Source of the DNA: Candidatus Eiseniibacteriota bacterium | GTDB lineage: Bacteria > Arandabacterota > Arandabacteria > JAGLYR01 | Length of the DNA stretch: 7,345 nucleotides | Direction of reading: 5' to 3' | Assembly (NCBI GenBank): GCA_023132135.1 | Contig: JAGLYR010000169.1 | Coordinates: 1 to 7,345 of the forward strand | Part shown: piece after piece, positions 6,959-7,084 of the stretch | How positions within the stretch are numbered: position 1 is the first letter of the stretch | How the letters are laid out: each line of letters begins with the position of its first letter | Translations under genes and position numbers: made by a program | Notes under the pieces: generated by a model | The model's input: the letters and a program-made list of their open reading frames with translations, nothing else | Told to the model about the DNA's origin: nothing | The model's database searches: none

Positions 6959-6968
6959 TCCTCACCCC
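6959..6968 (-). promoter_or_regulatory. pyrR Shine-Dalgarno, repeat of the terminator 3' arm
   Basis: GGGGTGAGGA directly precedes the pyrR ATG. Its GGTGA core pairs with the end of 16S rRNA. The first nine bases of this site, with the preceding T, repeat TGGGGTGAG from the terminator loop and 3' arm (6982-6990), exactly 21 bp away. It can therefore be masked by the same 5' arm (6992-6998). Confidence 0.75.
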
Positions 6969-7001
6969 AAAAAAAAGACCTCTCACCCCATGTGAGAAGC
7001 C
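6969..7001 (-). terminator. Leader intrinsic terminator (attenuator) of the pyr operon
   Basis: The 5' arm at 7001-6992 pairs over all 10 positions with the 3' arm at 6986-6977: eight Watson-Crick pairs plus two G-U wobbles (6998/6980 and 7000/6978). The 5-nt loop is AUGGG. The stem is followed at once by eight U residues (6976-6969), the textbook form of a Rho-independent terminator. It lies 10 nt before the pyrR start codon and downstream of the PyrR-binding loop, so it would act as the conditional attenuator: transcription stops here when PyrR-UMP is bound upstream. Because it precedes all seven genes, it would gate the whole operon, including the lipoprotein. Confidence 0.88.
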
Positions 7002-7049
7002 ATCGCAGATAACACTGCTCTCCATTGTCTCATCCCTTTCCAGCCTCAC
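6992..7049 (-). promoter_or_regulatory. Candidate antiterminator pairing in the pyr leader
   Basis: GUGAGG (7049-7044), which spans the loop and 3' arm of the PyrR-binding stem, can pair over 6 bp with UCUCAC (6997-6992), the core of the terminator 5' arm. This pairing excludes both the PyrR-binding fold and the terminator, as an antiterminator should. A shorter alternative is UGAGA (7032-7028) with UCUCA (6997-6993). The pairing is short, so the exact antiterminator is inference. Confidence 0.5.
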
Positions 7050-7065
7050 AGGGCTGGATTAAAGG
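7035..7065 (-). promoter_or_regulatory. PyrR-binding RNA stem-loop (anti-antiterminator)
   Basis: The leader RNA folds into a lower stem CCUUU (7065-7061) with AAAGG (7039-7035), a 3-nt 5' bulge AAU (7060-7058), a 6-bp upper stem CCAGCC (7057-7052) with GGCUGG (7045-7040), and the hexaloop CUGUGA (7051-7046). The PyrR site in Bacillus pyr leaders is a stem interrupted by a purine-rich 5' bulge, capped by a loop of form C-N-G-N-G-A and followed by GGCUG and AAGG; this site matches in loop, bulge placement and flanks. Only one copy is present here, against three in B. subtilis. Position between promoter and terminator and linkage to pyrR support the call. Confidence 0.87.
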
Positions 7066-7074
7066 TCCATCCAG
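7054..7074 (-). promoter_or_regulatory. Upstream leader hairpin competing with the PyrR-binding loop
   Basis: CUGGAU (7074-7069) pairs perfectly with AUCCAG (7059-7054) around a 9-nt loop. Its 3' arm takes bases from the bulge and 5' upper arm of the PyrR-binding stem, and its loop contains the lower 5' arm CCUUU. It would form first during transcription and would leave the GUGAGG segment free for antitermination. Role inferred. Confidence 0.45.
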
Positions 7075-7084
7075 AACCTGCGTC

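Follow-up and report, generated by a model that had tools for sequence, protein, structure and literature searches.

A predicted single-site PyrR attenuator with a leader reading frame through its terminator in a Candidatus Eiseniibacteriota pyr operon

Introduction

This locus raises the question of how a PyrR-binding loop at the head of a pyrimidine operon could govern the terminator behind it when no antiterminator is predicted to connect the two. For Thermus ZO5, Van de Casteele et al. reportedly described in J Bacteriol in 1997 a pyr attenuation that lacks an antiterminator, with the proposal that a translating ribosome prevents the terminator from forming. The window analyzed here, a stretch of 7,345 nucleotides, is one contig of the 3.4-Mb draft genome of a Candidatus Eiseniibacteriota bacterium, and all of its pyr genes lie on the minus strand. 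An earlier note on this DNA had read the leader as a PyrR attenuator of the kind best known from Firmicutes. The attenuator itself is well supported, but it does not look like the Firmicutes one: an antiterminator is not predicted, and the terminator is crossed by a leader ORF, neither of which the note had mentioned. We consider it probable that the leader is a Thermus-type PyrR attenuator, in which the loop gates translation of the leader ORF and that translation controls the terminator.

Results

The gene order, pyrR-pyrB-pyrC-TPR-pyrK-pyrD-pyrF (Table 1), places an intact pyrR first, as in a PyrR-regulated pyr operon. Thermus PyrR (1ufr) is the nearest solved structure to the window's PyrR, which keeps T20, R21, H24, R141, R146, and K152 at the positions of the RNA-binding residues of B. 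subtilis PyrR (T18, R19, H22, R141, R146, and K152). The TPR lipoprotein encoded between pyrC and pyrK has the lipobox LSGC; the NCBIfam models that come closest to it (PorW/SprE, YbgF, and BamD) all score under their cut-offs.

Upstream of pyrR, a 7-bp stem closes the perfect CUGUGA hexaloop that the earlier note had pointed out, and an internal loop and a 5-bp lower stem follow. The Rfam covariance model RF00515, with which that note wished the leader to be scanned, aligned over its full length to 7069-6969 with a score of 49.8 bits (E 8.9e-5), a little short of its gathering score of 54. In the whole 3.4-Mb genome the leader is the sole match at E <= 1, and two sister leaders of the same phylum score 36.5 and 35.6 bits. 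The sister leaders L003-L006 have an A-G mismatch where the closing pair of the hexaloop would be, a change that may account for their low scores. On a separate loop descriptor the window scored 18.5; among dinucleotide-shuffled pyrR upstream regions, 99.9% scored 11.3 or less and the maximum was 12.0.

The compensatory changes that the earlier note had hoped to see in related leaders are present. In a gap-free alignment of 39 leaders outside the named Firmicutes (39 columns), 12 of the 13 loop pairs have changed at both positions, and pairing holds in 86% of cells. The covariation score of 0.561 exceeds both the 0.286 of shuffled versions and the values of slid versions, which reach 0.227 at most. 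The C, G, G, and A of CNGNGA are invariant in all 39 leaders, and the hexaloops of four sister leaders (CUGUGA, CGGUGA, CAGUGA, and CGGCGA) vary at the N positions only. A stem with an internal loop and a CNGNGA hexaloop, backed by covariation, marks the structure as a predicted RF00515-type loop.

The 10-bp hairpin and U8 tract that had been described before pyrR are also in place, with pyrR starting just 3' of the U8. The leader has a folding energy of -36.4 kcal/mol versus -27.9 in shuffles (z -2.36). Together, the covariance model, the covariation, and conservation in five of five pyrR-bearing phylum members argue strongly for a single-site PyrR attenuator ahead of pyrR, as had been suggested. 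The candidate promoter of the window is weak when taken alone, as its score of 6/12 matches is attained by most shuffles. Four phylum members have a candidate promoter with 8-10 of 12 matches, likewise with a 17-nt spacer, immediately 5' of the binding loop. We infer a transcription start near 7078.

Table 1. Positions of leader elements and genes in the window
Feature	Position	Strand	Remarks
Possible promoter	7085..7113	-	TTGCGC (7113-7108), 17 nt, TAGGGT (7090-7085); 6/12 matches
PyrR-binding loop	7034..7065	-	hexaloop CUGUGA at 7051-7046; RF00515 match; descriptor score vs shuffles; covariation, 39 leaders
Shine-Dalgarno-like AAAGGG	7034..7039	-	3' strand of the loop's lower stem; 8 nt before leader AUG; location common to relatives
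Leader ORF, 29 codons	6936..7025	-	reads through terminator and U-tract, overlaps pyrR start
Alternative leader ORF, 16 codons	6983..7033	-	ends within terminator 3' arm; start codon too near AAAGGG
Intrinsic terminator hairpin, 10 bp	6977..7001	-	
U8 tract of terminator	6969..6976	-	
pyrR, 182 aa	6410..6958	-	NCBIfam NF003549, 251.7 bits vs cut-off 138
pyrB, aspartate carbamoyltransferase	5472..6413	-	
pyrC, dihydroorotase	4157..5506	-	
TPR lipoprotein gene within operon	2457..4184	-	
pyrK	1685..2488	-	
pyrD	735..1688	-	
pyrF	22..735	-	

The presumed pyr promoter is preceded, at a distance of about 12 bp, by a palindromic repeat of about 180 bp (7125-7305), whose 25-nt inverted arms (TAGCCTGCATTTCTCACCAGGTTTC / GAAACCTGGCGAGAAACGCAGGCTA) are 92% complementary. 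It has 56 matches in the draft genome when both strands of the palindrome are counted; several are near-complete at 87-96%, and many are one-arm fragments, some of them at contig ends. By its sequence, the repeat is a putative MITE-like element.

The leader ORF begins at an AUG (7025-7023) 8 nt past the binding loop, crosses both terminator arms, and stops 23 nt within pyrR. With a ribosome site in the loop and a frame that continues through the terminator, it has the predicted layout of a Thermus-type leader. Each of the five phylum members found to carry pyrR has a leader ORF, and the four sister leaders among them follow the plan of the window: the Shine-Dalgarno sequence AAGGAGG within the loop, a GUG or AUG 4 nt on, and 30 codons across the terminator, with a UGA stop that overlaps the pyrR AUG as AUGA (ATGA in the DNA). 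The leader peptides are not alike, and their lack of conservation lends translation of the ORF no support at the codon level.

A Bacillus-type antiterminator was considered first for the window leader and was rejected. In its nascent RNA up to the terminator loop, 0.0 pairs are expected between the terminator 5' arm and the binding loop, whose stem is closed at a probability of 0.99, and the loop/terminator duplex, at -10.1 kcal/mol, has a z of only -0.45 against shuffles. The median of expected antiterminator pairs is 4.9 in Firmicutes and < 1 in other groups, and the median duplex energy in Firmicutes is -14.6 kcal/mol. Another candidate, a GGUUC/GGACC hairpin 5' of the loop that would free the Shine-Dalgarno sequence, was set aside; we do not rely on it because no counterpart was seen in sister leaders and because it depends on the position of the transcription start.

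We then counted leader ORFs whose start codon comes just past the loop, whose Shine-Dalgarno sequence is suitably spaced from that codon and sits within or beside the loop, and whose frame stays open beyond the terminator. Among leaders having both loop and terminator, such an ORF occurs in 28 of 33 outside the named Firmicutes, where shuffling of linkers and tails predicts 9.4 (P 9e-14), and in 9 of 27 from Firmicutes, where 9.1 are expected; these tests take leaders as independent, and the contrast with Firmicutes is uncorrected for descent. The PyrR tree is too poorly resolved for such a correction: 33 of its 57 inner branches are open, and just one independent supported pair is left for leader ORF versus Firmicutes. 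If the stop may lie anywhere from the hairpin loop onward, 32/33 and 11/27 leaders qualify. As an internal control, frames holding a well-placed start were compared with the other frames of the same leaders; they are more often open outside Firmicutes (P 7e-5), and no such excess was found in Firmicutes (P 0.42). A second sample, drawn from RF00515 matches in 386 genomes across the bacterial tree, supplied 42 new usable leaders from 31 families, 33 of which carry the ORF where 11.6 are expected; this figure is a total that will include some Firmicutes, since a split by nearest PyrR is unreliable.

By their record titles, ORF-bearing leaders come from Nitrospirae, Nitrospina, Omnitrophota, Methylomirabilota, Syntrophaceae, FCPU426, and others. 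Two closely similar leaders (L088 and L013), one of them from a Nitrospinota, have an ORF that ends with UAG inside the terminator loop and not beyond it. Seven further loci (L123, L125, L138, L151, L166, L170, and L181) match RF00515, and pyrR was not found in the DNA examined around them. Two other lineages (L016 and L027) have no terminator, and there the pyrR start codon follows immediately on the binding loop, an arrangement that suggests direct translational repression.

The earlier note had held that this locus would extend the distribution of the switch, but an occurrence outside Firmicutes is in itself no novelty: a Thermus control genome matches RF00515, the pyrR leaders of many other phyla carry the loop, and a 2013 study already listed the PyrR motif as "moderately distributed" (PMC3766115). 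A 35-nt conserved stretch has also been noted in Geobacter pyrRBC-carAB (PMC2700814). Our literature search, which covered open-licence papers only, found no earlier survey of the leader-ORF form. The window leader is a further example of a known, little-studied kind, and the interesting part is the breadth of its layout across phyla.

Discussion

The Thermus-type reading would work as follows. Transcription would begin near 7078, and the nascent RNA would form the PyrR-binding loop. With an ample supply of uridine nucleotides, PyrR-UMP would keep the loop shut; AAAGGG, situated in the lower stem of the clamped loop, would be hidden, and therefore no ribosome would enter the leader ORF. The terminator could then fold, transcription would end near 6969, and the operon would be off. 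With PyrR free of UMP and bound to PRPP, a ribosome would instead load at the AUG at 7025 and trail RNA polymerase. It would cover the terminator arms 24 nt downstream of the AUG, block the hairpin, and finish just inside pyrR while the polymerase continued.

The main difficulty of this ribosome-gated model is timing. For an E. coli terminator placed 30 bp after a start codon, translation relieved only about 10% of efficiency, although leader peptides such as that of pyrBI do relieve a terminator, helped by pausing (PMC4824070). With a gap of 24 nt between AUG and terminator in the window, RNA polymerase would thus have to pause. It also counts against the model that, even in the absence of PyrR, the lower stem is able to mask the Shine-Dalgarno sequence and that the window's own predicted promoter is weak.

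Other readings of the same leader have to be weighed against it. A three-hairpin switch of the Bacillus type, in which the 3' half of the loop and the terminator 5' arm form an antiterminator and PyrR blocks that pairing, letting the terminator fold with no part for a ribosome, is established for Bacillus subtilis and Streptococcus pneumoniae (PMC6296669), and UGUGAG of the loop could indeed pair with CUCACA of the terminator 5' arm. This pairing is no better than in shuffles, however, and is not formed in the predicted nascent RNA, and the binding-loop stem remains closed in folding even when the terminator 3' arm is blocked. The antiterminator is missing in the other phylum members as well, and we regard such a switch as unlikely here.

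We give slightly less credence still to a translational switch resembling the one proposed for Mycobacterium, in which PyrR would hide the Shine-Dalgarno sequence of the leader ORF, pyrR would follow by coupling, and the terminator would be of little importance. The overlap of the leader ORF with the pyrR start, tightened to ATGA in four relatives, fits such coupling, as do the terminator-free loops right before the pyrR start codon in L016 and L027. Yet a switch of this sort needs no terminator, and a strong one separates the loop from pyrR in each of the five pyrR-bearing phylum members as well as in most other lineages. That the loop is a non-regulatory relic and the ORF a chance frame is highly improbable: the covariance-model score under the curated cut-off and the unconserved leader peptide would agree with it, but the covariation, the loop letters invariant over many phyla, and an ORF layout far above chance in two samples would not.

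Our findings bear on how PyrR regulation is described more broadly. PyrR attenuation is commonly equated with the Bacillus antiterminator switch, and a review describes that switch only (PMC4347634); ribosome-gated PyrR attenuation is so far proposed for one Thermus strain. We see even chances that the ribosome-gated form is the usual one outside Firmicutes and that the antiterminator is a Firmicutes specialization of a loop that hides a ribosome-binding site. Should the leader-ORF form prove as widespread as the two samples suggest, the standard account covers a minority of lineages, and annotation of RF00515 sites should take in the short ORF. A single protein-RNA module would then have three outputs, namely antitermination, ribosome-coupled termination, and direct translational repression. 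The 1997 proposal for Thermus also becomes directly testable.

Among known systems, the window leader most resembles that reported for Thermus ZO5, which is said to share the PyrR-binding loop, the terminator, the lack of an antiterminator, and a proposed ribosome passing through the terminator. The window differs in its phylum, in having its own leader peptide and terminator sequence, and in the TPR lipoprotein gene within its operon. A close Thermus relative among our leaders (L008), whose PyrR is nearly identical to 1ufr (4.6e-102), has the same layout and leader ORF as the window. The Bacillus subtilis pyr attenuators (RF00515) also combine a PyrR site with a CNGNGA hexaloop, a terminator, and pyrR as the first gene; that operon has three attenuator sites, while the window has one, with no predicted antiterminator and with a leader ORF through the terminator.

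In Mycobacterium smegmatis, PyrR has been proposed to hide a Shine-Dalgarno sequence, as we propose here, but the ribosome site of its pyr leader is that of the first gene and no terminator is known there, whereas the window has both a leader ORF and a terminator. Control of E. coli pyrBI involves UTP-sensitive pausing. In the E. coli pyr leader (pyrL) an advancing ribosome inhibits the terminator (PMC5021804), and the window would share with the pyrBI attenuator a short leader whose translation through an intrinsic terminator prevents termination, as its sequence leads us to propose. PyrR is absent from that system, whereas here PyrR would control the entry of the ribosome.
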